In this document: piece by piece, positions 20,149 through 46,837 of the stretch
Numbering within the stretch: position 1 is the first letter of the stretch
How the letters are laid out: each line of letters begins with the position of its first letter
From: Lachnospiraceae bacterium
GTDB taxonomy: Bacteria > Bacillota > Clostridia > Lachnospirales > Lachnospiraceae
Direction of reading: 5' to 3'
Assembly: GCA_015056975.1 (NCBI GenBank)
Contig: SVFG01000001.1
Coordinates: 61,556-125,555, forward strand
Length of the DNA stretch: 64,000 bases
Position numbers and translations under genes: made by a program
The notes under the pieces: model-generated
Seen by the model: the letters and a program-made list of their open reading frames with translations, nothing else
The model's database searches: none
Told to the model about the DNA's origin: nothing

Positions 20149-21306
20149 ATGAAGTTTAAAGCAAAAGCAAAAGATTGCCAGATTGTGATACGGGCAAAAA
20201 CTTCGTTTGGAGAAAACATTGACAGCAAGGAACTTGATAGATTTTCCCGAGTATTTCTTCGTGGCTTTTTAAAACCGAAACAGATTAAAAAGGGAATAGT
20301 AGATTATACGGGACCGGTTGGGATTAGCCTCTATGAAAGAATGAAAAAGCCAATAACAAAAAGAGATTTTCTTTTTATTATGGAGCAGATTGTTGTCGCG
20401 GTTCAGAAGCTTCAGGCGAATAGTTTGTCGTTGGTTCATTTAGAAAAAAATATACAGTATGTATATATTAATGAAACGACAAAGGAAGTTCAGTTTATAT
20501 ATTTGCCAATGGTTAAAGTGAGGAATACAGGAGATTTAATAACATTTATTGATTCTATTATTTACTCTGTGTTGCCGGCAGATGAAAATGCAAGTGAGGT
20601 TGTTTCGAGATTTGTATATTATTTCCATGGTCTTAAACCATTTGATATCAATAAGTTAGAAGCGTTTATACAGAAGGAAGATAGAAGCGTTGTTAATACA
20701 ATAAAAAAGCAAAATGCCGGACAGAGCGGCTATATGACAAATAAACAACAGCATTATTATGAACATTATGATAATAAGGATGATGAAAAGACGGGACTGC
20801 TTGACGATGAAGCAACTGGTATGTTGGAGGGCAACGAAGGTCGAACAGTCTTGGAAGGTGCAACCGGAGTGACGTATTTGTTACCTGATTATGAAGAAGC
20901 AACAGGTCTATTGACTGGCGAAGAAGCAACAGGTTTATTGGCGGATGAAGAAGCGACCGGTTTGCTGAATGGTTACGGAATGCAGGCAGCACAAGTGGAG
21001 AAGCAGGAAATTTGTTATGCAACGTTATACAGAGTGCTGACGAATGAAACAATAAAGATTAATAAACCGGTATTTAGAATTGGAAAAGAACGAAGCTATG
21101 TTGACTATTTTGTTACAAATAATACAGCTGTAAGCAGAAATCATGCGGATATAGTCATGCGTGCCGGGAAGTTTTATGTAAAAGATTTAAATTCAAAGAA
21201 TCATACCTATATCAATGGCAGAGAAATCCCTGTTCAGATAGAAACGGAGATTTTGAATGGTGATAGGTTAACCTTGGGTAACGAGGAATTCATTTTCAAG
21301 TATTAA
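20149..21306 (+). CDS. FHA-domain protein with N-terminal DUF6382-like/EssB-pseudokinase-like region and acidic T-G-L-L motif linker
   Basis: C-terminal FHA (FRIGKERSYVDYFVTNNTAVSRNHADIVMRAGKFYVKDLNSKNHTYING); start corrected to ATG 20149 because the RBS aggagg lies inside the ORF-track start. Confidence 0.8.
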   Translation: MKFKAKAKDCQIVIRAKTSFGENIDSKELDRFSRVFLRGFLKPKQIKKGIVDYTGPVGISLYERMKKPITKRDFLFIMEQIVVAVQKLQANSLSLVHLEKNIQYVYINETTKEVQFIYLPMVKVRNTGDLITFIDSIIYSVLPADENASEVVSRFVYYFHGLKPFDINKLEAFIQKEDRSVVNTIKKQNAGQSGYMTNKQQHYYEHYDNKDDEKTGLLDDEATGMLEGNEGRTVLEGATGVTYLLPDYEEATGLLTGEEATGLLADEEATGLLNGYGMQAAQVEKQEICYATLYRVLTNETIKINKPVFRIGKERSYVDYFVTNNTAVSRNHADIVMRAGKFYVKDLNSKNHTYINGREIPVQIETEILNGDRLTLGNEEFIFKY

Positions 21307-21325: not shown

Positions 21326-22090
21326 GTGAAATTTATAGCAACAGTAGATTCAGATGTTGGCATCTCTAAAAAGACTAATCAGGACAGCGTCCTAATCAAA
21401 CATGCAACATGCGATTTGGGAGAAGTGTTGATGGCGGTTGTGTGTGATGGTATGGGAGGCTTGTCTAAGGGTGAATTGGCAAGCGCAACAGTTATCAGAG
21501 CTTTCAATCAGTGGTTTGATAATGAATTGCCTTTTGAACTGGAAAATGTAGATATGAATGTTATTGGTGCTAAGTGGTCTTTGCTGTTGAAGGAACTGAA
21601 TGTAAACATACTTGAATATAGTAAGTCAATTGGTGAAGATGGAATGGGCACAACTTTTTCCGGAATATTGTTTGTGGGAAATGATTATGTGATAGTTCAC
21701 GTTGGAGATTCCAGAATATACCATATTGCATCAGGATTAGAACAATTAACATCGGATCATACATTTATTGCCAGAGAAATCAGCAAAGGAACTATGACCA
21801 TTGAACAGGCTAAAACAGATAAAAGGAGAAATCTATTATTACAGTGTGTTGGAGCTTCAAAAGTTGTTGAACCGGACGTACTAATTGGAAAGACTAACAA
21901 AGGCGTATACCTTTTGTGCTCTGATGGCTTTAGACATGAAATAACAGAAGCTGAGATGTTTGAATCATTAAATCCTATAAACTTAATGAATAAGGAAACA
22001 ATGCATAGTAACGCAAGATATCTTATTGAACAAGTAAAATCTCGAGATGAAAAGGATAACATATCTGTGATTCTTGTTAAGGCAGAGTGA
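21326..22090 (+). CDS. PP2C-family serine/threonine phosphatase
   Basis: NQDSVLIK, VVCDGMGGLSKGELAS, VHVGDSRIYHI, LTSDHTF, LLCSDGF, DNISVILVK motifs; GTG start. Confidence 0.92.
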   Translation: MKFIATVDSDVGISKKTNQDSVLIKHATCDLGEVLMAVVCDGMGGLSKGELASATVIRAFNQWFDNELPFELENVDMNVIGAKWSLLLKELNVNILEYSKSIGEDGMGTTFSGILFVGNDYVIVHVGDSRIYHIASGLEQLTSDHTFIAREISKGTMTIEQAKTDKRRNLLLQCVGASKVVEPDVLIGKTNKGVYLLCSDGFRHEITEAEMFESLNPINLMNKETMHSNARYLIEQVKSRDEKDNISVILVKAE

Positions 22091-22101
22091 GGTGGGCATA
22101 A

Positions 22102-23754
22102 ATGACGGAAGTCGGAACAGTTATTGATGGAAAATATGAAATACTGAAAGAGATTGGTCGAGGCGGTATGTCTGTTGTTTACCTTGCGATGGACAAACGT
22201 TTAAATAAGCAGTGGGCAGTCAAAGAGATTCGAAAAAAAGGGAATGGTAAGAATGATGAGATTGTTGTAAACAGTTTGCTTGCAGAAGCAAATATGATGA
22301 AAAAACTTGATCATCCGTCATTGCCGAGAATTGTTGATATTATTGATAATGGTGTCACTATATATGTCATTATGGACTACATAGAAGGTGAATCATTAGA
22401 TAAGATTTTAGATGAATATGGTTCTCAACCGGAAGAACTGGTAATAGGCTGGGCTAAGCAATTGTGTGATGCATTGGGGTATTTGCACTCACAAAAGCCT
22501 CCAATTATTTATCGAGATATGAAACCGGCTAATATAATGCTCAAACCTGAAGGAAATATTAAGATTATAGACTTTGGTATTGCAAGAGAATATAAAGAAC
22601 AAAATCTTTCGGATACGACGGTGCTGGGGACAAAAGGGTATGCTCCGCCTGAGCAGTATAGCGGACAAACAGACGGACGCTCAGACATCTTTGCTTTGGG
22701 TATGACGATGCATCATTTATTAACCGGTGTTGATCCGAGAAATGGAGAGCCATATGCACCTGTTAGACAGTGGATGCCGGAGCTTTCGGAAGGTATCGAA
22801 ATAATCATTGATAAATGTGTAGAACCGGCAGCGGAAAACAGATATCAGACATGTGCTGATTTGTTATATGATTTGGAACATCCCGATTACATAGTAAAGG
22901 GATACAAGAAAAGGCAAAAGAGAAAGCTGGCTACGTTTTTGGCTTGCATAGGATTTTCAATAGTAGCGGCAATAACCGGAGTAATATTGAATATTTCTTC
23001 AATGAATTTAGATAATCAGGATTATGATTTAAACGTTGCAAGTTCTGATCCGGAAAAGTATTTTACAGCAGTAGATATTTATCCGGAGAGAGTGGATGCT
23101 TATGATAAATTGATTGAGTATTACAAAAATCATGAGGCGGCAAATGAGGAGATTGTTAAGGTTGGAAATGTTATAGAAGAATACGCGGATAAACAAGATT
23201 TGACAAATCCATTAATTGCAGATATGTATTACGACATGGGTAAGCTGTATTTTGCTGAATATGATGGCAATTTTAAGACTCGTGCAGCAAATGCTTTGCG
23301 TTTTTTCAAAGATTCATCGCAGTCAGAAGCGGATTTTGATAAAAAGGAAATCGCACATTGTTATTATGAGATATGTCGATTTATGACAAATCAGAGTACA
23401 ACATCGGAGCATTCCTTAAATGATTACACGACGCTTTTTACAGAGATTGATACTGTAATGGAGATCGTAAGTAGGGCAAATGACAATGAAGCAAATTATG
23501 ACAAAATATCGTTGTATTATGTAACAATGCTTCTTATTAATGATCAGACAGAATATATGGCCGGTGTGGGGTTTGAGAGACAGGCAACATTGGATTTAAT
23601 GGAAGAGTTATATCAGAATGTAAACGGAATAACATCCACGTTACCTTATGTGAATGATTTGAAAGATGAGATAGAGTCTGATTACGATTCCTTTATTGCT
23701 AACATTAATGCGAAGTATAATGAAGTCGAAAAAAGACAGAATGGAGGTAATTAA
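22102..23754 (+). CDS. Serine/threonine protein kinase, single TM, extracytoplasmic helical/TPR-like domain
   Basis: IGRGGMSVVYLAMDKRLNKQWAVKEI, IIYRDMKPANIML, IIDFGIAREY, GYAPPEQY; TM LATFLACIGFSIVAAITGVIL. Confidence 0.92.
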   Translation: MTEVGTVIDGKYEILKEIGRGGMSVVYLAMDKRLNKQWAVKEIRKKGNGKNDEIVVNSLLAEANMMKKLDHPSLPRIVDIIDNGVTIYVIMDYIEGESLDKILDEYGSQPEELVIGWAKQLCDALGYLHSQKPPIIYRDMKPANIMLKPEGNIKIIDFGIAREYKEQNLSDTTVLGTKGYAPPEQYSGQTDGRSDIFALGMTMHHLLTGVDPRNGEPYAPVRQWMPELSEGIEIIIDKCVEPAAENRYQTCADLLYDLEHPDYIVKGYKKRQKRKLATFLACIGFSIVAAITGVILNISSMNLDNQDYDLNVASSDPEKYFTAVDIYPERVDAYDKLIEYYKNHEAANEEIVKVGNVIEEYADKQDLTNPLIADMYYDMGKLYFAEYDGNFKTRAANALRFFKDSSQSEADFDKKEIAHCYYEICRFMTNQSTTSEHSLNDYTTLFTEIDTVMEIVSRANDNEANYDKISLYYVTMLLINDQTEYMAGVGFERQATLDLMEELYQNVNGITSTLPYVNDLKDEIESDYDSFIANINAKYNEVEKRQNGGN

Positions 23755-23756: not shown

Positions 23757-24272
23757 ATGGCGGAGACATTATCAACATTATCAATTATCTCATTTGTTTT
23801 AGCTGTTATAGCATTGGCACTTGCAATAGTATTTTGGTTCTTTTTTGATATACCGACAGTTATTGGTGATTTAACAGGAAGAACGGCGAGAAAAACGATT
23901 GCTAAGATGCGAGCGGAAAATGAAAAGAGCGGAGTTAAGAAGTATAAGGAGGGTAAGGTAAATTTACAAAGAGGGAAGCTTACGGAAACAATGTCCGGTA
24001 TTAAAGAAAAGACTGATAATGAGGAAAAACGACCGGATACGGGCTTGCTTGCAGAAAATAGGGCGGAAACAACCGGAATAGAAGATACGGTTTTTTTAAA
24101 CGAGGAAGCGTCTAGGCCGTTGGCTTTTGAGGAAACAAGCTTGCTTGTTGATGAAAATGAAACTGTTGCTTTAGACGGAAATGCTCAGACGGTAAAAAGA
24201 GTCGGTGGTAAAATGCTGACGCTTATTGAAGAGGTCATGCTTATCCATACGGATGAGGTGATTAAATGTTAG
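23757..24272 (+). CDS. Single-TM protein with several T-x-x-L motifs in an acidic cytoplasmic tail (hypothetical)
   Basis: TM near N-terminus (IISFVLAVIALALAIVFWFFF), then RPDTGLL, DTVFL, ETSLL, ETVAL. Confidence 0.6.
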   Translation: MAETLSTLSIISFVLAVIALALAIVFWFFFDIPTVIGDLTGRTARKTIAKMRAENEKSGVKKYKEGKVNLQRGKLTETMSGIKEKTDNEEKRPDTGLLAENRAETTGIEDTVFLNEEASRPLAFEETSLLVDENETVALDGNAQTVKRVGGKMLTLIEEVMLIHTDEVIKC

Positions 24273-24757
24273 AACATAAATTGAAACGTTATATCATTTT
24301 GAGTATTGCAATGGCGTGTTTACAATTTGGTTTAATAATATGTATTGCGTTTGTAAGCATTGAAGGAACAACGATACAGAAGGTGGCAGCATATATTGTG
24401 GCATTTATGTTTTGGACAAGTATCATTTTCGAAATATTATTGGCCCATTGGTCGGACGGAGAAAGAAAGCAGTTGGACCGATATGTGCTTAGGTGTAGGG
24501 AAATAAGGCGAGCGCCATCGGGAATCTTTTCTTTTCTAAAAAACACAGAGGCGATGGTAGCTGATATTTTACTTTTTGTTTCGGTAGCAGCATTGGGCAT
24601 TATTTTGTGGATGCAGATTAAAACAAGTTGGATTATTATCAGTGTATTGTCAATTTTTGTTTTGTCATTTAGCTTACATTGTATTCTGAATGGAAAAAAT
24701 TATAGATATTTAAAAAAGTTAAAAGAACAAAATAAAGGAGCAAAGAAAAATGAGTAG
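24266..24757 (+). CDS. Hypothetical membrane protein (about 4 TM segments)
   Basis: Overlaps both neighbouring ORFs by 7-8 nt; hydrophobic segments. Confidence 0.6.
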   Translation: MLEHKLKRYIILSIAMACLQFGLIICIAFVSIEGTTIQKVAAYIVAFMFWTSIIFEILLAHWSDGERKQLDRYVLRCREIRRAPSGIFSFLKNTEAMVADILLFVSVAALGIILWMQIKTSWIIISVLSIFVLSFSLHCILNGKNYRYLKKLKEQNKGAKKNE

Positions 24758-32213: not shown

Positions 32214-33134
32214 ATGTATACACTTAAAGACAATGACGTAATAAGAGAAATCGTTTGTGGGAATAATTTTGAATATGTGTTAGAGGACAACAGTTACTTT
32301 GTAAATACTGATTATAAAGTGTTACAGAGTCAAACAAACGGTATTTTTATACAGTGTATGAAGATGACGAGAAATGGGAAGACGGATTTGTATTATATTA
32401 CAAATGATTATCGTCCGATGTCATCTATGTTTGTGGGAATAACTGCAGACTTACTGATTGCTGTGGTTGTGAATCTTTTTGCAAGTGTTATAGAAGTAAG
32501 GAACAATGGCTTTCTTGCATGCCAATGTATAGATTTATCTTGGGATAAGATTTTTGTTGAGCAAAATACACTTAAGGTAAAATTGGTATATCTTCCGCTA
32601 AGTGTGAAAGCATTTGACAGTTATGCAGAATTTGAGAGCGAGCTTCGCTCCAGCATTGTTAAATTGATAAATAAAGTTATTGTTGAGACCAATGAACGTT
32701 TAAATCAGTTTGTACAGGATTTGTGCAACGGTTCTTTATCAATAGAGGATGTATATAATCGTTCGAGAAGTGTAGGCACGCCATCTATTCCAAAGAGAGA
32801 GGAAAACAGAACTCCTGCGCCGGTCAATAATGCAAGCGGTACGATAAAACTCGTGGCAATGAATGCGCCGGGGCATTTTGAGTTACCAATAGACAGTGCA
32901 GATATACTGATCGGCAAGAAACAGGAAATGGTTGATAAAGTTATATTATTTAACAACATGATAAGTCGTAAGCACTGTAGAATTACATGCGTAAACGGCA
33001 TTTACTTCATATCAGATGAAGGAAGTGCTAACGGAACATTTGTCAATGGGGCAAGAGTTGCACAGGGACAGCGTTGTCAGATAAACAGAGGCGACATTAT
33101 TCGCTTAGCAAATAGTGATTTTCAGATTGTGTAA
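32214..33134 (+). CDS. FHA-domain protein with DUF6382-like/pseudokinase-like N-terminus
   Basis: FHA: ILIGKKQEMVDKVILFNNMISRKHCRITCVNGIYFISDEGSANGTFVNG; N-terminal FVEQNTLKVKLVYLPL resembles the FIYLP motif of the 20149 protein. Confidence 0.8.
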   Translation: MYTLKDNDVIREIVCGNNFEYVLEDNSYFVNTDYKVLQSQTNGIFIQCMKMTRNGKTDLYYITNDYRPMSSMFVGITADLLIAVVVNLFASVIEVRNNGFLACQCIDLSWDKIFVEQNTLKVKLVYLPLSVKAFDSYAEFESELRSSIVKLINKVIVETNERLNQFVQDLCNGSLSIEDVYNRSRSVGTPSIPKREENRTPAPVNNASGTIKLVAMNAPGHFELPIDSADILIGKKQEMVDKVILFNNMISRKHCRITCVNGIYFISDEGSANGTFVNGARVAQGQRCQINRGDIIRLANSDFQIV

Positions 33135-33146: not shown

Positions 33147-34205
33147 ATGGCAAAACCAAGAGTGATAATCGCAGATGAAGATGCAAATTATATAATTCCG
33201 TTGCAATTTAAATTTGTAAGTGACTTTTTTAATAAAATAGAGCTCGAGATTATCTCGGACAAGGAATATTTTGATGAATTTTTCTCCAGACCTCAAAATG
33301 CGGAGATATTGATTGTGTCTGATGAGTTATATGATTCTTCGCTTCAGAGACATAACATTGCAAATGTATTTGTGATGATGGAACAGTTTGATGAAGCCGG
33401 AACCGGAGATTTAAGTGTAAATCGATTGTTTAAGTATACGAGTATAAAAGAAATTTTTAATGAGATTGTTGGGAAAAGTGCATCTGCGCTAAGTGTAGCG
33501 GATATAGAGAAGAAAGAAACGCAGATAGTTTTGGTTACATCTGCTGCGGGAGGTGTAGGAAAAACAACAGTAGCAATGGGAATTGCTGCGAGTCTGAGTA
33601 AAAATTATAAAAGAGTGTTATATATAAATGCTTCGAGATTACAGGTATATCAGCATATGTTGGATAATTATTCGGCAATTACGGCATCTGATGTGTATAC
33701 AAAGCTCGCATCATCATCCCAAGATATATATGGAAATATAAAGCATGTAATAAGAAAAGAGGCCTTTAGTTATTTGCCGCCATTTAAAGCGTCATTAATG
33801 TCATTAGGATTAAGCTATTCTGTATACGAAAATATAATTCTCTCAGCGAAGAAAAGTGAGGATTTTGATTATATTATTGTTGATACGGATACAACATTTG
33901 ATGAGGATAAAGCTACGTTATTGAATATTGCCGATAAGGTTGTGATTGTTACGAAGCAAACGTTGGCTTCTGTTCTTGCAACGAATATATTGGTTAGCAA
34001 CATTAATGGTATTGGTGCAGAGAAATATAGTTTTATTTGTAATGATTTTGAGAAGGAAGATAGTAATGCACTGATAAGTCCTAACGTAGCCCTTAAGTTT
34101 ACTGTAGGAGATTATGTAGAACATTTTTTACATTGTGAAGGGATGAAGCCAAATGAGTTGGCGGCGGAAAGTAGTATTCAAAGGGTTTCATTCCTGATTA
34201 TGTAA
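33147..34205 (+). CDS. CpaE/MinD-like P-loop ATPase with degenerate receiver-like N-terminus
   Basis: Deviant Walker A TSAAGGVGKTTVAMGIA; FDYIIVDTDTTFDEDKATLLNIADKVVIVTKQT. Confidence 0.8.
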   Translation: MAKPRVIIADEDANYIIPLQFKFVSDFFNKIELEIISDKEYFDEFFSRPQNAEILIVSDELYDSSLQRHNIANVFVMMEQFDEAGTGDLSVNRLFKYTSIKEIFNEIVGKSASALSVADIEKKETQIVLVTSAAGGVGKTTVAMGIAASLSKNYKRVLYINASRLQVYQHMLDNYSAITASDVYTKLASSSQDIYGNIKHVIRKEAFSYLPPFKASLMSLGLSYSVYENIILSAKKSEDFDYIIVDTDTTFDEDKATLLNIADKVVIVTKQTLASVLATNILVSNINGIGAEKYSFICNDFEKEDSNALISPNVALKFTVGDYVEHFLHCEGMKPNELAAESSIQRVSFLIM

Positions 34206-34216: not shown

Positions 34217-34471
34217 ATGAACAAAGAATCCGCAATTATTATTTTTAATATTGTGAAGAGAAATTTTTCGGTGGATCTTGAAGTCCCATTGGATATATCT
34301 GCAAATGACCTTGTCAACGGGTTGAATATAGCTTATGAATTAGGCATTGATACATCTGACATTAAGAATTGTTACTTAAAAGCGGAAAATCCAATTGCGT
34401 TGCTTAAGGGAAATAAAGCATTAGCAGATTTTGGGCTGAGAAATGGTAGTGTAATTAATTTTACAGAATAA
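34217..34471 (+). CDS. EsaB/YukD-like ubiquitin-fold protein
   Basis: 84 aa; DLEVPLDISANDLVNGLNIAYELG...LRNGSVINFTE; immediately upstream of EssC as in T7SSb loci. Confidence 0.75.
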   Translation: MNKESAIIIFNIVKRNFSVDLEVPLDISANDLVNGLNIAYELGIDTSDIKNCYLKAENPIALLKGNKALADFGLRNGSVINFTE

Positions 34472-34483: not shown

Positions 34484-37400
34484 ATGGATAGTAGATATAA
34501 AATTATTTTATCGAATAATAATCTATATAAAGAAATTGAGCTTTCCCCTGATATGCAGATAGCTAAGGTCGGCACAAGTGTTGAGTGTGATTTCCGTTTG
34601 CATAAGGATTTTTTCTTCGGGCAAATTGAACTCATTTTTACTAAAAGTAATAATGGATGGTCTGTAATATGTTCCGACAATCTCTATGTCACTGTTGGTG
34701 ATGTACGTAAATTTGCAACGAAACAACTCGAGCACGGTGATATATTGGAGGTTCGTTATCAAGATTCAGATAATCACGTTTTTAGTTTAGAGTTTTTATT
34801 AGATTTTGATAATGGTAAGCGCAAGTATGAAAGAGTAATTGATGTTTTGGGATGCAACAATTTGTCTATCGGTACTGCAACAAATTGTAATATTGTTTTA
34901 AAAGGCAACTATGTAAAAAGCGACTATATAGAATTATTAAAACAAAATGATGGTTTTTCAGTGCGTATACAAAATTCAACTTATGGTATGTACCATAATG
35001 GAAAAAAAGCTGTAAATACAACTATTATAGCAAATGGCGATTTTTTCTCTGTTTCGGATTACTTTTTCTATTATAAAGATGGTAAGTTATGGACGGAAAT
35101 TAGAGCTGACATCGCAATAAATTATTTGAATTTTATAGATAAACCGGATTTAAACAATTACCCGCGATTTAATCGTAATACGAGAATAAAAGCTATGATT
35201 GAAGGCGGAAAGATTGAAGTATTAGATCCTCCGCCACCGATTCAGAAACCCAAAGGTAATATTATTTCTTCACTCCTGCCATCCCTTATTATGGTAGTGG
35301 CTGGTTTGGCAATGTCCATGCTTTCGCCGTTTATGCTTATTTCAAGCGGCATAGGTGTTGTTACCGGAATAATGGGACTTGTTCAAGGAAACAAAGATTA
35401 TAAAAAGTCATCTGCAGAGCGTATTATTAAATATAATGCTTATATTGAAAACAAAAAGCGAGAAATTGAGCAATGTCGAAATGACGAACGCAAAACACTT
35501 GAAGAAATATATTTGTCTCCGGAAGCAGAACAACATAATTTTGCTACGTTTTCTTCACAACTTTTTGACAGAGATAAAAAGGATGTTGACTTCCTCAGTG
35601 TACGCTTAGGAACTGGTCTTGTTGAAGCGAAGAGAGAGATTAATTATAAAAAGCATGAAAAATTGGATGTTGAAGATGAACTTCAGCAAATTCCAGAAAC
35701 TTTGTGTAATCAATACAAATATATAAATAATGCACCTATCGTTTGTGATTTGACAAAAATAAACGCTGTTTGCATTGTGGGTGAATTAAGTTTTAGGTTT
35801 GAGATTTTTAAAAATTTTATTATTGATATTTCTGCTAGGCACTATTATTCAGATGTCAAAATGTTTTTCATTGCTGAAGAGGAAAACAAAGAAAAGTTAC
35901 ATTGGCTTAGATTCCTTCCGCATGCGTTTAATGATGAATTAGGTATTAGAAATATGGTTTGTGATGGAGAAAGCAAAAATATTATTTTTGAGTATCTATA
36001 CAAAGTTTTGACGCAGAGAAAGCAAAACAAAGAAGATGATACAAAGATAGTGGCATTTTTCTTTGATGAATGCGGATTCAAATCACACCCTATTTCTAAA
36101 TTTGTAGAAGATGCAAGAGAGTTAGGTATTACTTTCGTATTTTTTGAAAAGAACATGTCTGATGTTCCATTGGGATGTGATAATATTATCGAAATAAAAG
36201 ATACTCAAAATGCTTGTTTGATTAACACCTCTGATAAAAATGATGCGTGTAATTTTATTTATCCAAGTATTTCGACTGCATACGCAGAAAGTATTGTTAA
36301 TTTGCTGGCACCGATTTATACCGAAGAAATTTCTTTGGAAGGAACTTTGACAAAAAACATATCACTATTTGAGTTGTTAAATATTATTGCTGTTGATGAT
36401 ATTGATCTCGAATCAAGGTGGAAATCTTCTCAGGTTTTCAAAACGATGGCAGCGCCTCTTGGCGTTTCAAAATCAGGAGTTGTATCATTAGATCTTCATG
36501 ATAAAGCACATGGTCCTCATGGATTGGTTGCGGGTACTACGGGTTCAGGTAAATCCGAAATATTACAAACTTACATTTTGGCAATGTCTACATTGTTCCA
36601 CCCGTATGAAGTATCTTTCGTGATTATAGACTTTAAAGGCGGTGGCATGGTTAATCAGTTTAAGGAATTGCCTCACTTGCTCGGTGCAATAACAAATATT
36701 GATGGAAAAGAAATTGACCGTTCTTTGAAATCGATTAAAGCAGAATTGCAAAAGCGTCAACGCCTTTTTGCTGACGCAGATGTAAATCATATTGACAAAT
36801 ACATAAAGAAGTTTAAGTCGGGTGAGGTAAGGACTCCGCTTCCGCATTTAATTATTATTGTTGATGAGTTTGCAGAGCTTAAAGCAGAACAACCTGAGTT
36901 TATGAAAGAACTTATTTCCGCAGCACGTATAGGACGAAGTTTAGGAGTTCATCTTATTCTTGCAACGCAAAAACCATCAGGACAAGTAGATGATCAGATT
37001 TGGTCAAATTCTAAATTTAAGCTTTGTCTGAAAGTGCAAAGTCAAGAGGATAGTAATGAAGTTATTAAGTCTCCTTTAGCAGCTGAAATTAAGGAACCTG
37101 GTCGAGCTTATTTGCAGGTTGGTAATAACGAAATATTTGAATTGTTTCAATCTGCATATAGTGGTGCACCGGAAAAGGTGGAAAATGAAAGTATTAAGGA
37201 ATTTTCTATATACAGTTTAAGTGGTTCGGGTAAGAAAATACCGGTATTTGTTCAAAAGAAGGAGAAAGCGTCTGAACAAAATCTCACGCAGTTAGAAGCG
37301 ATAGTTAAGTATGTGAATTCTTACTGTTGTAAGCAAAACATAGCAAAACTATCAAACATTTGTCTTCCTCCTTTACCGGATTTGTTGCCGCAACCGGATA

Positions 37401-38956
37401 CTTATGACGAAAATAAAACTCTTGTGGATATTGGATTGTTTGATGATCCGGACAATCAAATTCAAGCACCTGCATATGTGGATTTGCAGAATAGAAATAC
37501 TTTAATTATTGGTTCATCACAGTTTGGAAAAACAAACTTGTTACAATCTATTATTAAAAATATATCCACGCAAACAAGCCCCAAAGAATCAGTATTTTAT
37601 ATTTTAGATTTTGGTTCAATGGTGCTTAAGAATTTTGAAAGGCTTAATCATGTTGGAGGTGTTGTTACTTCTTCCGAGGACGAAAAACTCAAAAATTTAT
37701 TTAAGTTACTTTTTGAAGAGATAACTGTTAGAAAAGAAAAGTTACTTTCAGTTGGAGTCAGTTCATTTTCATCTTATGTTGAAGCCGGATATACCGATTT
37801 GCCGCATATTTATGTGATCGTAGATAATGTGACGGCTCTGATGGAGTTGTACCTATCAAATGATGATAGTTTGCTTTCTATCGTTCGTGAAGGTATTTCA
37901 GTAGGAATCTCAACAATAATGGCTAATAATCAAACTGCCGGTATTGGATATAGGTATCTTTCAAATTTTGCAAATAAAATAGTACTGTATTGTAATGATA
38001 GTGCTGAGTATACTAATATTTTTGATCATGTTACGATTAAGCCGGATGAAAAAGTGGGACGTTGCGTACTGGAAATAGATAAGAATATGCTAGAATGCCA
38101 AACTTACTTAGCTTTTGAAGGGGAGAAGGAAATTGAAAGAGTTCAACATATGCGTAGTTTCATCGAAACTGTTAATAGCAAGTACGAAGAGTTCAGAGCA
38201 AAACAAATTCCGTATATTCCGAATGTTCTTGATATTAAAACGATGCTGCAAGTATATAGTGCTGCACCTAACGGCTATTCATTGCCTGTTGGATTGGCAT
38301 ACGATGATGTCAAACCGTATGTATTAAATCTGAATTCTATAGGAATTTTAGGAATTACAGGAAAAGAAGGCTTTGGTCACAAAAATTTTGTGTCGCTAAT
38401 TGTTAAGAGCTTAATGTCAAAGAGTATGAATGATGCTGAGATAGTAATTTTCGACGATGTAACGAGAAAATATGCTAAATATAAGGACAGCATTGCATAT
38501 TACTCGTTAGATGCAAGTTCGGTTTCAGTTGTTGTTGAACAATGGCATAAGGAATTAAAAAGAAGATATGATGGCATGATGCTAAACAATACAAGTAGTA
38601 CAGATGATAGACTACTTGTTATGATTGTTCAAAATAATGATGTTGCAAGCGCAATACAATCCGATATGGGAGTGTTAGATAAGTTTAATGAAATTCTTAC
38701 ACGTTATAAGGATATGGGAGTATGTATTATTTTTGCAAATTATCCGAACACCTCAATTTCTTACGATGCTCCGGATGCTATTCGAACAATAAGACAAAGA
38801 CAACATGTTATATGCCTTGACGACTTACAAAATCTCAAGTGTATTGACCCGCCGTATGATGCAATCAGACAATATAAAAAGCCGATATCGGTGGGTGACG
38901 GTTACTATGTTAATGGCAATGATGTAGTGAAGTTGAAACTAATATTAGCTGAGTAG
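34484..38956 (+). CDS. essC: Type VII secretion ATPase EssC (N-terminal FHA domains, TM, three FtsK/SpoIIIE-type ATPase domains)
   Basis: Walker A GTTGSGKS with FVIIDFKGGGM; second P-loop GSSQFGKT; third site degenerate (GITGKEGFGHKN). Confidence 0.92.
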   Translation: MDSRYKIILSNNNLYKEIELSPDMQIAKVGTSVECDFRLHKDFFFGQIELIFTKSNNGWSVICSDNLYVTVGDVRKFATKQLEHGDILEVRYQDSDNHVFSLEFLLDFDNGKRKYERVIDVLGCNNLSIGTATNCNIVLKGNYVKSDYIELLKQNDGFSVRIQNSTYGMYHNGKKAVNTTIIANGDFFSVSDYFFYYKDGKLWTEIRADIAINYLNFIDKPDLNNYPRFNRNTRIKAMIEGGKIEVLDPPPPIQKPKGNIISSLLPSLIMVVAGLAMSMLSPFMLISSGIGVVTGIMGLVQGNKDYKKSSAERIIKYNAYIENKKREIEQCRNDERKTLEEIYLSPEAEQHNFATFSSQLFDRDKKDVDFLSVRLGTGLVEAKREINYKKHEKLDVEDELQQIPETLCNQYKYINNAPIVCDLTKINAVCIVGELSFRFEIFKNFIIDISARHYYSDVKMFFIAEEENKEKLHWLRFLPHAFNDELGIRNMVCDGESKNIIFEYLYKVLTQRKQNKEDDTKIVAFFFDECGFKSHPISKFVEDARELGITFVFFEKNMSDVPLGCDNIIEIKDTQNACLINTSDKNDACNFIYPSISTAYAESIVNLLAPIYTEEISLEGTLTKNISLFELLNIIAVDDIDLESRWKSSQVFKTMAAPLGVSKSGVVSLDLHDKAHGPHGLVAGTTGSGKSEILQTYILAMSTLFHPYEVSFVIIDFKGGGMVNQFKELPHLLGAITNIDGKEIDRSLKSIKAELQKRQRLFADADVNHIDKYIKKFKSGEVRTPLPHLIIIVDEFAELKAEQPEFMKELISAARIGRSLGVHLILATQKPSGQVDDQIWSNSKFKLCLKVQSQEDSNEVIKSPLAAEIKEPGRAYLQVGNNEIFELFQSAYSGAPEKVENESIKEFSIYSLSGSGKKIPVFVQKKEKASEQNLTQLEAIVKYVNSYCCKQNIAKLSNICLPPLPDLLPQPDTYDENKTLVDIGLFDDPDNQIQAPAYVDLQNRNTLIIGSSQFGKTNLLQSIIKNISTQTSPKESVFYILDFGSMVLKNFERLNHVGGVVTSSEDEKLKNLFKLLFEEITVRKEKLLSVGVSSFSSYVEAGYTDLPHIYVIVDNVTALMELYLSNDDSLLSIVREGISVGISTIMANNQTAGIGYRYLSNFANKIVLYCNDSAEYTNIFDHVTIKPDEKVGRCVLEIDKNMLECQTYLAFEGEKEIERVQHMRSFIETVNSKYEEFRAKQIPYIPNVLDIKTMLQVYSAAPNGYSLPVGLAYDDVKPYVLNLNSIGILGITGKEGFGHKNFVSLIVKSLMSKSMNDAEIVIFDDVTRKYAKYKDSIAYYSLDASSVSVVVEQWHKELKRRYDGMMLNNTSSTDDRLLVMIVQNNDVASAIQSDMGVLDKFNEILTRYKDMGVCIIFANYPNTSISYDAPDAIRTIRQRQHVICLDDLQNLKCIDPPYDAIRQYKKPISVGDGYYVNGNDVVKLKLILAE

Positions 38957-38972: not shown

Positions 38973-39404
38973 ATGGCTAAATCTCTTGATGACTATAAAT
39001 CAGAGAAAAAAAGTTTGGAAAACCAAATTTCAAGTCGAAAAAGCAAAAATGCAAGAATTTCAAGAGAAATTGCGCGGCTTGAAGACGCTTATAACAAAAT
39101 GGGCAAAATAAAGCGCAATAATGATAATAACGCAGACAAAGTAAGAGATAATACCAAACTTAATAAAGTAGCAGGCAATGTAGAATGGAGAGGCAAATAT
39201 AAGGATCAGTTTGATAATGCTATGAAGGATAGGGCAACTCCTGCTGCTAAAGATTTTTTTGATAGTATTGATGCTATGCAAGACGAAATAGGAAGGGCAT
39301 TGGACAAAAAAAGAGGAGAATATAATACGGGTTCTTCCATTCTTAACGGTTTAAATAAAGCGTGGAATAATGTTTCGGGTATTATCCGTAACTGGGTCAA
39401 TTAA
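38973..39404 (+). CDS. DUF5082/YwqH-like T7SS-associated helical protein
   Basis: Coiled-coil N-terminus, WRGKYKDQFDNAM motif; position upstream of an LXG gene. Confidence 0.65.
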   Translation: MAKSLDDYKSEKKSLENQISSRKSKNARISREIARLEDAYNKMGKIKRNNDNNADKVRDNTKLNKVAGNVEWRGKYKDQFDNAMKDRATPAAKDFFDSIDAMQDEIGRALDKKRGEYNTGSSILNGLNKAWNNVSGIIRNWVN

Positions 39405-39420: not shown

Positions 39421-39696
39421 ATGGCAGAGTTAAAGGCTAGAATAGAGGACATAGATGGGTTGGTAAAGGCTATTAAAACAAACAGTGATGCTATTGATAT
39501 ATCGGTCTCCTCTGTGAAAGAGCCTTCAAAAAGTAAAGGGATAGTAGTGACTGAATATATCAAAAGAATAAGAGAAATTTCCCAGCTTTTAGATAAATAC
39601 AAGCAATTGCTGGATAGAGATGTATTAGATATAAAAGATTCAAAAGATAAAATTCAGGAAATGGATAAAGAAATGGAAAAGCTTTCAAAAAACTAA
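39421..39696 (+). CDS. DUF5344/YwqI-like small helical T7SS-associated protein
   Basis: 91 aa helical protein, order YwqH-YwqI-LXG. Confidence 0.65.
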   Translation: MAELKARIEDIDGLVKAIKTNSDAIDISVSSVKEPSKSKGIVVTEYIKRIREISQLLDKYKQLLDRDVLDIKDSKDKIQEMDKEMEKLSKN

Positions 39697-39731: not shown

Positions 39732-42137
39732 TTGGCTTATACAAAAGTTTATTATGATGATATTTGGGAAATAACATCAAATGGTTGCCAAAAATGTGAT
39801 AAGTGGTTACAAAGTATTCAGGACTTGTCGGAAAGTTTTTCTGATTTTGTTCAAACAGAAAGTTTTAAAGGACATGCGGCAACAAATATGAAAAGTTACC
39901 TTGAACAGGTACATGGCATACTCATATCAATTATTGGTACCGTAGTACAGTCATATTATTATCTTGCTACGGACTATTATGGTGGATATACACGTATTGT
40001 GGATACAGGTGATAGTGACAAATATGGTTTGAGATATACGACAATTGTCAATGATGAAGTTAGCGAGATGGGATTAATACAAAGTAGATTAAGTGCAATA
40101 CTAAGAACTGCCGAACAGGTTGTAACTGATGCTAACAGCGTGAAAAGTAGTATTTCAGATTTGGTTTCGATTGCATCGTATCCCAGGACATATAATCTAT
40201 ATGAGCAAATTAACGCTGCAAAATCTAAAGCACAGACTGTTCATGATAATGTTATTGCATATGAAGCCTCAAGAGAAAACGATTTCATTGAAATAGACAG
40301 ACTTATCTCACAGGCTTTGTCTATTATTAATGCTCAGCTAGGAATGACTAGAACGAGAATATCGGTTGTAGAATATCAACAAGGAACAATCGGAACGATA
40401 TGCGATATAAATCAAATACTTGTTGATTTGGAAGCATCTTCAGAAAAAGTTACGGCAATTATCGAAAAGGGATATTTTGAAGAAGACGTTAATCTTGTTC
40501 TTAACCGTGATGCGCTTATCCAAGAAGAGGAACGAGCATCCCGTGAATGGGCTCAATGGGTGGCAGTTGGTTTTGCGGTGGTAGGTGCGATAGCATTGAC
40601 AGTGGTTACCGCAGGTACTGCAGGACCGGGTGCTTGTGTTATGGTGGGGGCTGTGTCAGGAGCTATTACAGCTGGGACAAGTGCATTGGCTGATAACTAT
40701 GTTGATAAAGGTTATGTGTTTAAAGATTTGGATTGGAAGGAATTGGGTAAGGATGTTTTAGTTGGAGCGGTAGGCGGTGCTGTTAGTGGATATCTCGGAG
40801 CAATTTCTCAAGGCTCAGCAATTAAACAGCCCATTCAGAAAGGCCTAACAGCTCTTTCAAATACAGTGTTAAGAGAAGGTGCTAAGGGTGCGACAGCTGT
40901 GACATGGGAAGCAGTGGAAACAACTATAGAAGTTGGAATGGCGATTATTGAAGAAAAACCCGGGGGCAAAATCCAATCTGTTTTAAGAGAAGGCGCAGGC
41001 GAAATGGGGGCTGAGTTTAAAGATACTCTCAAGACAGTGACTACAGAAGGCGCAAAAGATTTTGTGAGTGCTACCATTGCCGGAAATTTTGATATTGATA
41101 CTTCTGATAAAAGTGTATTGAGAAAAGTAGGTGAAAAAACGCTAGAAGGTATTGGCGGTGGTGTGACCAAAGGTACAGTAAGCGCTATTTGGGGCGTTGG
41201 CGAGGCCTTGGTTGATAACGATAGTTCAACAACTGTCCAATCCGCACTTCAAGCAGGCTTCAAAGAAGGCGTTAAAGAGGTGGCAAAATCCACGGCAAGT
41301 ACAGTGGTTTCAGAAGGTATCTTTTCCGGCGTAGATGATATTGATAATAAGACCGGAAAAATAGTAGCAGAAACAGTAAAGGATACGGCTGAGAAAACCG
41401 TTGAAAACGTTGCTGAGGGTGTTGCAGGAAGAACAATGGATTATATTTACGGCGATGAAAAAGATGCTGGTAAAATATTCGGAGACATATGGGAAAAGGA
41501 TTTGGAAAGCGGAAGAGTAATTGCACAAGCAGCAGGCGAAGCAGTAGGGGAACATATTGTTGATGAAGTCCATAAAGATGATAAGCATTATAATGATTTA
41601 AAGAAAATTGATAAAGACGGTGATGGAAAAATAGAAGTTGTTCAGTTTGATGAGTATGCCGTTACCAAGCAAGATTATGATGCAGCCGTTGAAAATGCAG
41701 GAAAAGGTGCGTATAAAGACAAGACGGTACAAGACATACTTGGATTACCAAAGGATACAGATATTAGTGCAGGTAAAGAACGAACTGTTTCAATTGACAT
41801 GACCGAAGAATATTCCTCAAGCAGAAAAACAACAGATACGGTTACTGTTGATGGCAAGTACACATTTAGTAAAAGCTATTACGAATCTTCCTTAAATGTT
41901 GCCGGCACAGATGAATATGGCGGTAAAACTGCTCAAGAAATTCTTGGAATACCTGATGACGTGGACTTATCAGAAGACAATGTAACTTATAAACGTGTCG
42001 ATAATGATAAAATCGGTCGAGGTAAAGAAATAGAGCTTCACAGTGATTACGGCACAAACGTAACCAAAATTCACATTTCAAGTATGAAGCGTGAGACGAG
42101 GTTGGAAAGAGAAGCAGAAAAACAAAATAATCAATAA
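39732..42137 (+). CDS. LXG-domain T7SS substrate with unusual C-terminal region
   Basis: LXG-like N-terminus (FKGHAATNMKSYLEQVHGILI), glycine-rich pre-hydrophobic region, C-terminal duplicated module; TTG start with ggaggg RBS. Confidence 0.75.
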   Translation: MAYTKVYYDDIWEITSNGCQKCDKWLQSIQDLSESFSDFVQTESFKGHAATNMKSYLEQVHGILISIIGTVVQSYYYLATDYYGGYTRIVDTGDSDKYGLRYTTIVNDEVSEMGLIQSRLSAILRTAEQVVTDANSVKSSISDLVSIASYPRTYNLYEQINAAKSKAQTVHDNVIAYEASRENDFIEIDRLISQALSIINAQLGMTRTRISVVEYQQGTIGTICDINQILVDLEASSEKVTAIIEKGYFEEDVNLVLNRDALIQEEERASREWAQWVAVGFAVVGAIALTVVTAGTAGPGACVMVGAVSGAITAGTSALADNYVDKGYVFKDLDWKELGKDVLVGAVGGAVSGYLGAISQGSAIKQPIQKGLTALSNTVLREGAKGATAVTWEAVETTIEVGMAIIEEKPGGKIQSVLREGAGEMGAEFKDTLKTVTTEGAKDFVSATIAGNFDIDTSDKSVLRKVGEKTLEGIGGGVTKGTVSAIWGVGEALVDNDSSTTVQSALQAGFKEGVKEVAKSTASTVVSEGIFSGVDDIDNKTGKIVAETVKDTAEKTVENVAEGVAGRTMDYIYGDEKDAGKIFGDIWEKDLESGRVIAQAAGEAVGEHIVDEVHKDDKHYNDLKKIDKDGDGKIEVVQFDEYAVTKQDYDAAVENAGKGAYKDKTVQDILGLPKDTDISAGKERTVSIDMTEEYSSSRKTTDTVTVDGKYTFSKSYYESSLNVAGTDEYGGKTAQEILGIPDDVDLSEDNVTYKRVDNDKIGRGKEIELHSDYGTNVTKIHISSMKRETRLEREAEKQNNQ

Positions 42138-42154: not shown

Positions 42155-42472
42155 ATGGAAAACAAGAAAATTTTACCGTTAGGAAGTGTTGTTTATCTTA
42201 GAGAAGGAAATAAGAAGTTACTAATTATCGCAAGAGGTCTTGTTGCAAAAAACGGGGACGGACATGTTTATTTTGATTACGGCGGTGTTCCCTATCCGGA
42301 AGGTCTTGTAGATGATAAGATGGCGTATTTCCAGCATGATGCAATTACTAAGGTTGTATTTGAGGGTTATACTGATTTGGATGATGAAGCAACGATAGAG
42401 AAAATCAACTTGTTTGTTGAAAATCATCCTGAAATTCCCAGAGGAGATGTTAAGCAACTTTTGAATAAATAA
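42155..42472 (+). CDS. DUF4176 family protein (T7SS-associated)
   Basis: ILPLGSVVYLREGNKKLLIIARGLV...YFDYGGVPYPEGL...QHDAITKVVFEGY. Confidence 0.8.
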   Translation: MENKKILPLGSVVYLREGNKKLLIIARGLVAKNGDGHVYFDYGGVPYPEGLVDDKMAYFQHDAITKVVFEGYTDLDDEATIEKINLFVENHPEIPRGDVKQLLNK

Positions 42473-42532: not shown

Positions 42533-42829
42533 ATGGCTGCTAATCAAATCAGAATGACTCCTGAATCTTTGCGTGGTAGAGCAGGCGATTATGCTAATCA
42601 GGCTGAAAATATTCAGCAGATTATCAACAATCTTGATCGTTTGCTTCAACAACTTCAGCAAGAATGGGAAGGCGATGCTAGTAGAGCATATGCAGAAAAA
42701 TTTACTCAACTTAGACCTGGGTTTGTTAATGCCAAGAATCTTGTTGATGATATTTCTACAGCACTCAAAAAAGCCGCTCAGATTGTTGAAGATACTGATA
42801 AAAACATTGCAGGGCAGTTCAGAAGTTAA
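42533..42829 (+). CDS. WXG100 family protein (EsxA-like)
   Basis: 98 aa; central W-E-G (QEWEGDASRAYAEKF), helical hairpin. Confidence 0.9.
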   Translation: MAANQIRMTPESLRGRAGDYANQAENIQQIINNLDRLLQQLQQEWEGDASRAYAEKFTQLRPGFVNAKNLVDDISTALKKAAQIVEDTDKNIAGQFRS

Positions 42830-42837
42830 GCGAATAT

Positions 42838-42948: not shown

Positions 42949-43785
42949 ATGAATAAACAATGCAAATCATGCGGTACTAATGTACCGGTTGATGTTAATT
43001 ACTGTCAGGTGTGCGGAGGTTCAGAGTTTTATGTCAATAATTCGGCATACAATCAGTACAATCAACAAACTTCTGTTAATCAGACATGGCAGCCTTCGGT
43101 TGCACAAAAACAAACGAAGAAGAATACATGGATTATTGTTGTTATAGTAGTAGCAATTTTAATCGTACTTGCAACAATGGGGTTTATATTTGAGAAAGTA
43201 TTTCAGCGGCTTGGGTATGGTGATAATTCCAGTGATAGAGATGAATATACCCTTGATATGAGTGAAGATATAAATGACAGTTCTGAAGAGATACCGGACA
43301 AACTGTATTATTCAAAAGGCACATTTGATGGAGAGATTTATGTAAATAAATGGGCAGATATACAATTAGCATTACCTGAAGGATTCTTTAATGCTGATTT
43401 GGCTACATATAATTCCGCAGAAAATTCAACTACGGAATGTGGAGCTTACTTTATTGCCAATGATACCATGAGTTTAATTTCTATCATATACGAAAAGTTG
43501 CCAACATTCCCAATTTATGAAGAAAAAGAGTATCTTGATGCGGTGATGAAACAACTGAATTCTGTTACTGGAATTACATATAAAACTCCGGAGGAATATT
43601 CTACTACAATCATTGGTGGATATAGATACGCAAAAGCTGAATGTGAATTCAATAACGGAAATGGAGATTTTTCTAATACTATTTATGCCAGAAAACTTGA
43701 TGACTATATGATTTGTATCTCTGTAATGGGTATAAATTCAAAATCTAACGATGCGTTGGTGAGTAATATAACAACTGCTAAATAA
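42949..43785 (+). CDS. Zinc-ribbon single-TM protein
   Basis: CKSCGTNVPVDVNYCQVCGG; TM WIIVVIVVAILIVLATMGFIF. Confidence 0.75.
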   Translation: MNKQCKSCGTNVPVDVNYCQVCGGSEFYVNNSAYNQYNQQTSVNQTWQPSVAQKQTKKNTWIIVVIVVAILIVLATMGFIFEKVFQRLGYGDNSSDRDEYTLDMSEDINDSSEEIPDKLYYSKGTFDGEIYVNKWADIQLALPEGFFNADLATYNSAENSTTECGAYFIANDTMSLISIIYEKLPTFPIYEEKEYLDAVMKQLNSVTGITYKTPEEYSTTIIGGYRYAKAECEFNNGNGDFSNTIYARKLDDYMICISVMGINSKSNDALVSNITTAK

Positions 43786-43921: not shown

Positions 43922-46837
43922 ATGAAATCAGAATTAATAGCTTGTTTCCAAGATACATTACAAATTTCAGAGGAAATATTAAGAGAAAAAACAATATCTT
44001 CCATAAGGTCAAACAGGGTTTATAAAGAGAACTTTGTGTCAAAAGTTGTTCATAAAGATGAGGCAGGAATTGTTAGTGTATGCGAGGAGACGACATTATT
44101 TGCTGCAAGGAGTCGCTGTCAATGTGGCAAGGTCGCAGTATTGAATTTTGCAAATCCTGAAATCCCTGGTGGAGGTGTTTGCAATGGTGCAATAGCACAG
44201 GAGGAAAGTCTTTGCAGAAGTAGCAATCTCTATTCCTACATAAATAGTCAAAAGGTTTTTGATGAATATTATGGTTATCACAGAAGCTTAAAGAATCCTT
44301 TCTATTCAGACAGATTGATATATACAAAAGATATTACAGTATTTAAGAATGAGGACACGGTGCCGCAATTTTTGCCTGAGGCTCTGTGGTTCAATGCTGA
44401 TGTAATAACTTGCGCGGCTCCTTATCTTGCAAAAAGGAAGTATACAAATACGAAGGCTCTAAAAATCCTATTGAAAGGAAGGATTAAGAATATTTTTGAG
44501 GCGGCGATTGATAATGCGGTAGATGTTTTGATACTTGGTGCCTTTGGATGTGGTGCTTTCAAAAATCCGCCGGAATTAGTTGCGGCTGCTTTTCGTGATG
44601 TAATTATTGAAAATGGGTATAATAAATGCTTTAAGGAAATTGTATTTGCGATAAAGAGCACAAATGAAAATGATTCTTTTGAACCATGTCCCAATATATT
44701 GGCTTTTGAGAATACTTTTTTGTGGGATGACGAGCTGGATACCCGTGTTACGACACGTGAGATGGGGAAATTAAGATGGACAGATAATTATCCGATTGTA
44801 CAGGCACTTGGAACTGTAGAATTGCCGTCCGGAAGGGTACTAAAAGGTGGAAAAGAATTTGAACCATATTATACTTGGAGAGACCGGAATAAATATAGTG
44901 GTAAACAGTTTTCCTTTTTGGGAGATTCTATAAGTACTCTTAATGGCTATAATCCACGCGGATATAACGTTTTTTATTATGGAGATAAGTGTAAAGAAGC
45001 AAATGTTGAAGAGTATGCGGATACATGGTGGGGAAAGGTTATAGAGTTCTTTGGTGCGGAATTATTGGTAAATAATTCATGGTCGGGAAGCAGAGTGACA
45101 AAGCTTCCGAATCAAAATGAAGTATTCCCGTCAGGATGCAGTGATGAGAGAACCTCTTCCTTACATATTAATTCCGTTAATCCGGATGTAATCATTGTTT
45201 ATCTGGGAACGAATGATTGGGCTTTTGGAGTGAAGACTGGAGAAGATACATGCGTTCTTGAAAGTGAAGAAGAAGTATTTTCAGATGCTTACAGAATAAT
45301 GCTCCGAAAAATTAAGAAAAATTATCCGGAAAGTGAAGTGTGGTGCTGTACTCTGAGTGCGACTTTTATTTCGAGCAAACCGAAGTTTCATTTTCCTCAT
45401 AAATATGCAGGGAAGCATATGGAAGAGTATAACGAGATTATTCGCAGAACGGCAAGAGAGGAAGAATGTAAACTTATTGATTTATATGGCATGAATAAGC
45501 CATATGATTCAATTGACGGTTCGCATCCTAATAAGGAGGGAATGCAGACTATAGCAACATCGGTTTGCTATGCAATGTCAGATGCAAGAGGAAAGAATTT
45601 TTTGTCTTTGGATGAAAAAGACACAGTTAGTAAACAGAACGATGAAGAATATGTTTTTATTGACCCTAATATAACAACAATTCTTTATGATGAAACAATT
45701 TGCTTGACGGATGAACGTACGGGAGAAGAAATAAAGATAAAAGAGAGGTATATTCATTTTGGGCGAGATAAAAAGTGCTTAATTAAGGTTGACGGACTTT
45801 ATATTGCAAGGCTACATGCATCATTTTCATATGAAAAGAATAATTGGTTTATAAGAGATAATTATTCTACTAATGGAACTCGTGTAAATGGAGTAAGGCT
45901 TGAGCCGAACAAGAAATATCAGTTATTGCCTGATGATGTAATTGAGTTTGCCGAAGAATATAAATATGTTTTTTATAAAACGAAAATAAAAAGTGAAGAG
46001 ACAATAGGTTTGAAAGAACAAATTAAAGAGGTAGGGGAAGAATGCCTGATTGGTAAAGTGATAGGAGGCAAATATCGGCTACAGAAAATAATCGGAATCG
46101 GGGGCATGACAAAGATTTATCTTGGAACGGATTTTTCCGGTAGAAAGTTTGCAATTAAGAGCATTAGTAAAAATATGAGTGCTTATAGAACGGTGGTTGA
46201 TGCATTGGTTGGCGGAGGGAGCCTGATAAATCGTTTAGAACATTTATATATCAGAAAAATATTTGAACAGATAGAGGATGAAACGCATTTTTATCTAGTA
46301 ATGGAGTATGTTGAAGGTAGTAGTTTGGAAGCATTGCTCTCAATATCAAGAGGAGTATTGCCGGTTGAAAAAGTAATCAGATATGCAGTACAAATTGCAG
46401 AAGCATTACAATATCTTCATTCACTTAATCCTCCGATTATTAACCGGGACATCAAACCAAGAAACATTATGGTGGATAGCGATGATAATATAAAACTAAT
46501 TGATTTTGACATTGCTATGGAGTACAATCCGCTTCAAAATGATATTAACATAGTAGGAACAAAAGGGTATGCTGCACCGGAGCAGTATGCAGGTAAAACA
46601 ACACCTCAATCAGATATCTTTGCTTTGGGGATGGTAATGTATCAAATGTTGACCGGTGTAAATCCGGCAGAACAACCATGTGATACCCATGCAATAAGGC
46701 AGTACAATTCAAGGTATACAGGGGAATTGGAAGAGATTGTGGAGAAATGCACTCGTACCAATCCGGATGACAGATTTAGTAGCTGTTCTGAATTAATAGA
46801 TGTTTTGAAAAAATGGGCGACAGGAGGAACAGTATAA
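43922..46837 (+). CDS. Four-domain fusion: microbial PARG (TIGR02452/PARG_cat-like) + SGNH/GDSL hydrolase + FHA + Ser/Thr protein kinase
   Basis: PARG signature GGGVCNGAIAQEE (aa 83-95); SGNH motifs GDSIS, GTND, DGSH (aa 334-535); FHA IHFGRDKKCLIKVDGLYIARLHASF...STNGTRVNG (aa 611-657); kinase IGIGGMTKIYLGTDFSGRKFAIKSI...NRDIKPRN...DFD...APEQ (aa 711-968). Confidence 0.9.
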   Translation: MKSELIACFQDTLQISEEILREKTISSIRSNRVYKENFVSKVVHKDEAGIVSVCEETTLFAARSRCQCGKVAVLNFANPEIPGGGVCNGAIAQEESLCRSSNLYSYINSQKVFDEYYGYHRSLKNPFYSDRLIYTKDITVFKNEDTVPQFLPEALWFNADVITCAAPYLAKRKYTNTKALKILLKGRIKNIFEAAIDNAVDVLILGAFGCGAFKNPPELVAAAFRDVIIENGYNKCFKEIVFAIKSTNENDSFEPCPNILAFENTFLWDDELDTRVTTREMGKLRWTDNYPIVQALGTVELPSGRVLKGGKEFEPYYTWRDRNKYSGKQFSFLGDSISTLNGYNPRGYNVFYYGDKCKEANVEEYADTWWGKVIEFFGAELLVNNSWSGSRVTKLPNQNEVFPSGCSDERTSSLHINSVNPDVIIVYLGTNDWAFGVKTGEDTCVLESEEEVFSDAYRIMLRKIKKNYPESEVWCCTLSATFISSKPKFHFPHKYAGKHMEEYNEIIRRTAREEECKLIDLYGMNKPYDSIDGSHPNKEGMQTIATSVCYAMSDARGKNFLSLDEKDTVSKQNDEEYVFIDPNITTILYDETICLTDERTGEEIKIKERYIHFGRDKKCLIKVDGLYIARLHASFSYEKNNWFIRDNYSTNGTRVNGVRLEPNKKYQLLPDDVIEFAEEYKYVFYKTKIKSEETIGLKEQIKEVGEECLIGKVIGGKYRLQKIIGIGGMTKIYLGTDFSGRKFAIKSISKNMSAYRTVVDALVGGGSLINRLEHLYIRKIFEQIEDETHFYLVMEYVEGSSLEALLSISRGVLPVEKVIRYAVQIAEALQYLHSLNPPIINRDIKPRNIMVDSDDNIKLIDFDIAMEYNPLQNDINIVGTKGYAAPEQYAGKTTPQSDIFALGMVMYQMLTGVNPAEQPCDTHAIRQYNSRYTGELEEIVEKCTRTNPDDRFSSCSELIDVLKKWATGGTV

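Follow-up and report, generated by a model that had tools for sequence, protein, structure and literature searches.

Gene arrangement at the locus

The DNA analysed here, referred to throughout as the window, comprises 64,000 nucleotides of contig SVFG01000001.1 from a Lachnospiraceae bacterium (assembly GCA_015056975.1). It contains a cluster of T7SS genes that lie on one strand and have a gene for a multi-domain fusion protein as their final member:

20131..21306, +, DUF6382-FHA protein (TseJ-like; profile match)
21326..22090, +, PP2C phosphatase (TseF-like; profile match)
22102..23754, +, membrane Ser/Thr kinase (TseD-like), TM helix at residues 278-296 (profile match, hydropathy, tree)
23757..24272, +, small protein with one TM helix (TseH/TseK-like)
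24266..24757, +, small protein with four predicted TM helices
24750..32078, +, Ig-like surface protein of 2442 aa with an N-terminal hydrophobic segment (TseI-like)
32214..33134, +, second DUF6382-FHA protein
33147..34205, +, MinD/ParA-type ATPase (AAA_31), possibly TsfV-like
34217..34471, +, YukD/EsaB-like protein (TseB-like)
34484..38956, +, EssC ATPase with N-terminal FHA region (TseC-like; TIGR03928, 1138 bits)
38973..39404, +, YwqH-like small helical protein (match below the curated cut-off)
39421..39696, +, DUF5344-like small helical protein (match below the curated cut-off)
39732..42137, +, LXG protein whose C-terminal part has no known domain
42155..42472, +, DUF4176 protein
42533..42829, +, WXG100 protein (TseA-like)
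42949..43785, +, zinc-ribbon-like, single-TM protein
43922..46837, +, PARG-SGNH-FHA-Ser/Thr kinase fusion protein of 971 aa (profile searches, model)

A first-pass annotation of the sequence had placed the last of these ORFs at the end of a T7SS locus, and profile matches for EssC, YukD, WXG100, LXG and DUF4176 upstream bear this out. It had been silent on the second Ser/Thr kinase (STK), the PP2C phosphatase and the two DUF6382-FHA proteins (matches at or slightly below the family cut-off) that belong to the fusion's own locus. The T7SSe components TseA, B, C, D, F, I and J are all represented. With the T7SSe and T7SSj systems (Garrett, Higginson and Palmer 2024, PMC11217815) the window shares EssC-FHA, YukD and WXG100 as well as the membrane STK, PP2C, the Ig-like giant protein and DUF6382-FHA, and it has in addition the MinD-type ATPase, which may correspond to TsfV. 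The locus encodes one Pfam WXG100 protein, one small membrane protein with a single TM helix and one with four; a second WXG100 protein (TseA2) was not found by Pfam search in the locus, and the phosphothreonine-binding residues R and SxxH are absent from the FHA region of the window EssC when the sequence is inspected by eye. We therefore speak of a T7SSe/j-like locus. Phospho-regulation has been proposed for systems of this type (PMC11217815), and the same authors draw the parallel to the threonine phosphorylation pathway of the T6SS, where kinase, PP2C and FHA protein govern a secretion system; the T6SS is a different secretion machine, its pathway lacks an ADP-ribose eraser, and we do not claim homology. 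No PARG or SGNH component has been described for T7SSe/T7SSj: SGNH is not mentioned in PMC11217815, and "ADP-ribos" occurs there a single time, within the reference list.

A hairpin, GCCGGTAATCGAC-AATTAT-GTCGATTGCCGGC, lies at 42837-42868 of the window between the WXG100 and zinc-ribbon genes; it was not listed by the pattern scan and is possibly a terminator.

Modules and active sites of the fusion protein

The fusion protein consists of the following modules:

43982..44668, +, PARG module (TIGR02452, residues 21-249; GGG-X7-QEE at 44168-44206)
44915..45547, +, SGNH/GDSL hydrolase module (residues 332-542; GDS, GTND, DGSH)
45755..45949, +, FHA module (residues 612-676; R and H present, Ser of SxxH replaced by Ala)
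46073..46783, +, Ser/Thr kinase module (residues 718-954)

The first-pass annotation had described four modules in one ORF, and its coordinates proved exact and its module assignment was confirmed, each module scoring above its curated Pfam cut-off: PARG_cat_microb (PF10021; residues 20-143, E 4e-32, 111.9 bits against a cut-off of 23.5), Lipase_GDSL_2 (residues 332-542, E 9e-16), FHA (residues 612-676, E 3e-16, 60.2 bits against 20.7) and Pkinase (residues 718-954, E 5e-44). NCBIfam model TIGR02452 matched residues 21-249 (E 2e-54, 185 bits against a cut-off of 50). Every segment thus passed the profile searches that had been proposed as a check. The reported PARG signature is complete, with GGG at residues 83-85 and QEE at residues 93-95, and the SGNH motifs are found as G334-D335-S336, G429-T-N431-D432 and D532-G-S-H535, the last being the DxxH motif, so that block I (S336), block III (N431) and block V (D532 and H535) are present. 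The FHA module retains R, H and N, while the kinase retains N848 as well as K746, D843 and D861, the Lys of VAIK and the Asp residues of HRD and DFG typical of Hanks-type Ser/Thr kinases; HRD itself is changed to NRD and DFG to DFD. Because the FHA module lacks the SxxH serine and the kinase carries DFD for DFG, phospho-control may be weak in the window fusion.

Structure prediction, likewise suggested at the outset, agreed with these assignments. When the PARG-SGNH half was modelled with AF2 (pLDDT 81, pTM 0.73), Foldseek matched it to the solved Deinococcus and Thermomonospora PARGs, with a TM score on the target of about 0.8, and to GDSL hydrolases, for example 4m8k (0.78). The model of the whole fusion (pLDDT 76, pTM 0.39) does not fix the placement of the modules relative to each other. 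With the bacterial PARGs (TIGR02452/PF10021; Thermomonospora curvata, Deinococcus radiodurans) the protein has the fold, the GGG-X7-QEE signature and the profile scores in common; it differs from that family by the added SGNH module and signalling tail, and by falling essentially into a group of its own apart from standalone PARGs. The SGNH module resembles 4m8k and 4nrd in sequence, fold and catalytic blocks I, III and V; those two proteins were deposited as putative GDSL-like lipases with the substrate unnamed, whereas the SGNH module of the fusion is joined to a PARG.

Recurrence of the fusion and its conserved core

Scanning an SGNH alignment against 85,488 species genomes gave 162 loci, of which the best 80 were retained; PARG and SGNH are encoded in one ORF in 18 of these 80, or about 16 once near-copies are removed (L105 and L106 are identical across the aligned part, L112 and L113 to 95%). 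Counting the window and the members from genomes G503 and G569, at least about 19 distinct lineages carry the fusion, among them Ruminococcus sp. zg-924 (L102), the record of which is not labelled as a MAG. The window genome is a draft of 164 contigs with 85.6% completeness, and no second case of the fusion came to light across its genus (138 genomes), where relatives of the SGNH module are distant ones only and the PARG matches inspected are single proteins or are fused to other domains. Both points would fit a frameshift-fused or chimeric assembly artefact, but the explanation is refuted by independent assemblies, one of them not labelled as a MAG, in which about 19 distinct lineages show identical module order; we consider its probability negligible. 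The PARG-SGNH fusion is real and recurrent. The first-pass annotation knew of no description of the combination, and we found none in the open-access literature searched, subscription journals lying outside the scope of the search. The multi-domain family is apparently undescribed so far, its novelty residing in the architecture.

The four-module unit stands for the window; it does not stand for the family, the invariant part of which is the PARG-SGNH pair only, while FHA, kinase, SseB_N and zinc-ribbon tails are variable or missing. Tails consist of FHA plus kinase, kinase alone or FHA alone, or are lacking altogether, and SseB_N or zinc ribbons are added in some members. The kinase is degenerate in L125 and L126, and in L108 it is encoded by the next, overlapping ORF, an arrangement that could alternatively reflect a sequencing frameshift. 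QEE is invariant in all members that have the PARG segment and GGG is present in all but L106 (CGG); the SGNH catalytic residues are retained in every aligned member except L209, where the Asn of block III is gone. In the alignment, the catalytic residues of both hydrolases are more strictly retained than those of the tail, and those pairs that could be scored indicate purifying selection (w about 0.2 or lower). TM helices are absent in most members; the G503 member (L209, 144-1880) has two at its C-terminus, which suggests membrane anchoring.

A basic, aromatic C-terminal motif resembling PPKKGFFxxIFKK occurs in L101, L102, L104, L107, L109, L110, L128 and the separate L108 kinase, hence also in the kinase-less L107, and is not present in the window protein.

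Linkage to T7SS genes

Co-occurrence of the fusion with T7SS genes, predicted by the first-pass annotation, was confirmed as a significant enrichment, but not as a rule. Among the distinct fusion loci from the best 80 of 162, eight of 16 have T7SS markers within 10 kb, compared with none of 20 standalone-PARG controls (Fisher p 4e-4) and three of 57 SGNH loci without PARG (Fisher p 1e-4), in a sample that consists mostly of draft genomes and in which several loci end at contig edges. The linked cases number 11 (L100, L101, L103, L106, L107, L108, L110, L128, G503, G569 and the window), and in all 11 the fusion lies downstream of the T7SS genes on the same strand (p 5e-4). Those in which EssC was seen represent at least two EssC lineages, and the L100 contig, like L275 and L100 taken together, shows a complete T7SSe-type operon with the fusion as its last gene. 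EssC is present in 13 of the 23 genomes searched; at least seven carriers among these 23 have neither a detectable EssC nor a nearby T7SS marker. In the reverse, EssC-anchored comparison, about 18 related loci with a full-length EssC from Lachnospiraceae included only one with the fusion, which is therefore an occasional accessory. The association is significant and partial, and it is not obligate.

The position of the gene beside WXG100 and LXG genes, with a WXG100 gene directly upstream in L106, L107, L108, L110 and L052, could also mean that the T7SS secretes the fusion itself, as an effector with its enzymatic targets in other cells. We regard this as improbable, since the window protein has no LXG or WXG-type helical targeting domain (Pfam), no N-terminal hydrophobic segment and, by hydropathy, no transmembrane helix. 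In addition, the upstream WXG100 proteins of L106, L107 and L110 resemble the TseA-like protein of the window, and the two C-terminal TM helices of the G503 member suggest anchoring in the membrane.

Phylogeny of the modules

In the PARG tree, the fused PARGs form one group that includes a single unfused member (two label changes compared with about 18 in shuffles). Fused and unfused members are intermixed in the SGNH tree (10 changes), so that splits or losses have occurred on the SGNH side. Most tail kinases group together in the kinase tree (support 98) and adjoin the TseD-type membrane kinases (86 for tail plus TseD); the tree was built mainly from T7SS loci, so that TseD is the closest kin among the kinases sampled. 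Within its own genome, the window tail kinase is by far closest to the locus kinase encoded at 22102-23754 (42% identity, compared with 31-32% for others).

This kinship, together with the presence of another STK, a PP2C phosphatase and a pair of FHA-DUF6382 proteins in the locus and with the phospho-regulation proposed for such systems, is what would be expected of a regulator. An ADP-ribose-derived signal would then be sensed or consumed by PARG-SGNH, and the resulting state relayed by the FHA/kinase tail to TseD, PP2C and TseJ, gating assembly or firing of the T7SS. Such a role is conceivable, although on balance we doubt it, as it is the hydrolases and not the tail whose catalytic residues are held more strictly, and as the T7SS-linked L107, G503/L209 and L052 lack a fused kinase, that of G503 being encoded separately.

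Neighboring erasers, writers and toxins

In L102, L104, L108, L112, L113 and L128 (a fragment), the fusion has genes for Macro, ADPRH or vWA proteins in its vicinity; L104 has Macro and ADPRH beside it, L108 and L112 have Macro and vWA. The loci listed suggest to us that ADP-ribose erasers may associate repeatedly with phospho-signalling domains. A search that did find PARPs in 2 of 299 relatives found no PARP writer in any of 23 genomes of carriers or their relatives; endogenous poly(ADP-ribose) is therefore unlikely to be the substrate. The ADPrib_exo_Tox family is present in 2 of 22 carrier genomes, and no recognizable ART toxin domain occurs among the scanned candidate T7SS substrates of these loci, some of which are Mbeg1-like lipases.

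Some related arrangements were seen in passing. SGNH, STK, PARG-ADPRH, Macro and vWA are encoded by separate consecutive genes with WXG100 genes close by in L131:7506-13260. An FHA-ADP_ribosyl_GH (FHA-ADPRH) fusion, pairing a phospho-reader with an ADP-ribose eraser, is followed by an SGNH gene in L147:8446-10501. A single 894-aa frame in L035 contains PARG followed by an ADP-ribosylglycohydrolase-like and a Macro-like region, the latter two recognized by reading the sequence, and is possibly a triple eraser.

A general eraser of ADP-ribose or NAD metabolites, or a defence against phage or against DNA/RNA ADP-ribosylation that is only sometimes located at T7SS loci, would account for the carriers (at least seven) without EssC, for Macro, vWA and ADPRH neighbors that also occur with no T7SS gene close by (L112, L104), and for the fact that standalone PARGs are common and show no T7SS link. 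We think this rather unlikely, because the fusion is enriched at T7SS loci of two EssC lineages, always on the same strand and in the same position, and because its tail kinases are related to TseD. With PADLOC, the fusion matched generic kinase models along its kinase region and no specific anti-phage model; membership in a known anti-phage defence system was rejected on these grounds.

Proposed function

Tentatively, we favor the idea that the fusion is a cytosolic eraser of ADP-ribose and ester groups that is tied into T7SS phospho-signalling, most likely for self-protection; this appears possible, though somewhat short of probable. We infer enzymatic activity, substrate, protective role and phospho-control as follows. 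The fusion would serve secretion loci of the T7SSe/j type as an accessory protein in the cytosol, and its core of PARG and SGNH esterase may remove or cleave ADP-ribose-based and ester-linked groups. The tail, related to the TseD family, and the FHA module would link this eraser to the phospho-relay of the locus (TseD kinase, PP2C, DUF6382-FHA), such that phosphorylation might set the time or place of its action. By reversing ADP-ribose-type damage caused by exchanged toxins, the protein could protect the producer or its kin.

Conserved active sites, purifying selection, T7SS linkage, tails akin to TseD and eraser neighbors argue for this eraser with a protective role, and there is precedent. 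ADP-ribosylglycohydrolases are known enzymatic immunity proteins against ART toxins, including T7SS-delivered ones (PMC3482391), and for bacterial PARGs, most of which occur in genomes without PARP and the purpose of which is an open question, defence against ADP-ribosylating toxins has been proposed (PMC4245714). The Imm-ARG/Tri1-type immunity proteins resemble the fusion in its proposed role, because they enzymatically reverse toxin-made ADP-ribosylation at secretion loci (PMC3482391); they have the ADPRH fold, whereas the fusion combines PARG, SGNH and a phospho tail, and no cognate ART was found for it. The protective reading is weakened by the lack of ART domains in the scanned substrates and the rarity of ADPrib_exo_Tox, as well as by the carriers without detectable EssC and the single fusion among some 18 EssC loci. 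Its phospho-control part is weakened further by the FHA and kinase substitutions in the window and by relatives with a pseudokinase or no tail. Overall, the interpretation given in the first-pass annotation, a coupling of ADP-ribosylation reversal to phospho-signalling at the T7SS, is partly supported; within it, the kinase is a putative sensor or activator and the N-terminal half a putative de-ADP-ribosylation module.

A more specific and rather speculative version, which we deem unlikely, is a switch between ADP-ribosylation and phosphorylation at the T7SS of some Clostridia, in which a PARG-SGNH eraser fused to a copy of the T7SS kinase would read phosphorylated T7SS components and remove ADP-ribose-type marks; arming and self-protection would then be one step. 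Joined to an esterase and to a kinase related to that of the T7SS, and recurring at T7SS loci, this PARG provides a concrete, testable setting for the question of what bacterial PARGs are for, and the fusion represents an enzymatic accessory added to the newly defined T7SSe/j variants.

Other SGNH gene arrangements

SGNH genes were also encountered as separate genes. One (L117:1294-1944), in a T7SS locus, adjoins the gene for the MinD-type ATPase and precedes EssC by about 5 kb; its ORF starts past the GDS block, and its start or integrity is unsure. Others lie within clusters of FHA, kinase and PP2C genes (L140 and L149), including one from Eubacterium ruminantium FB3002.
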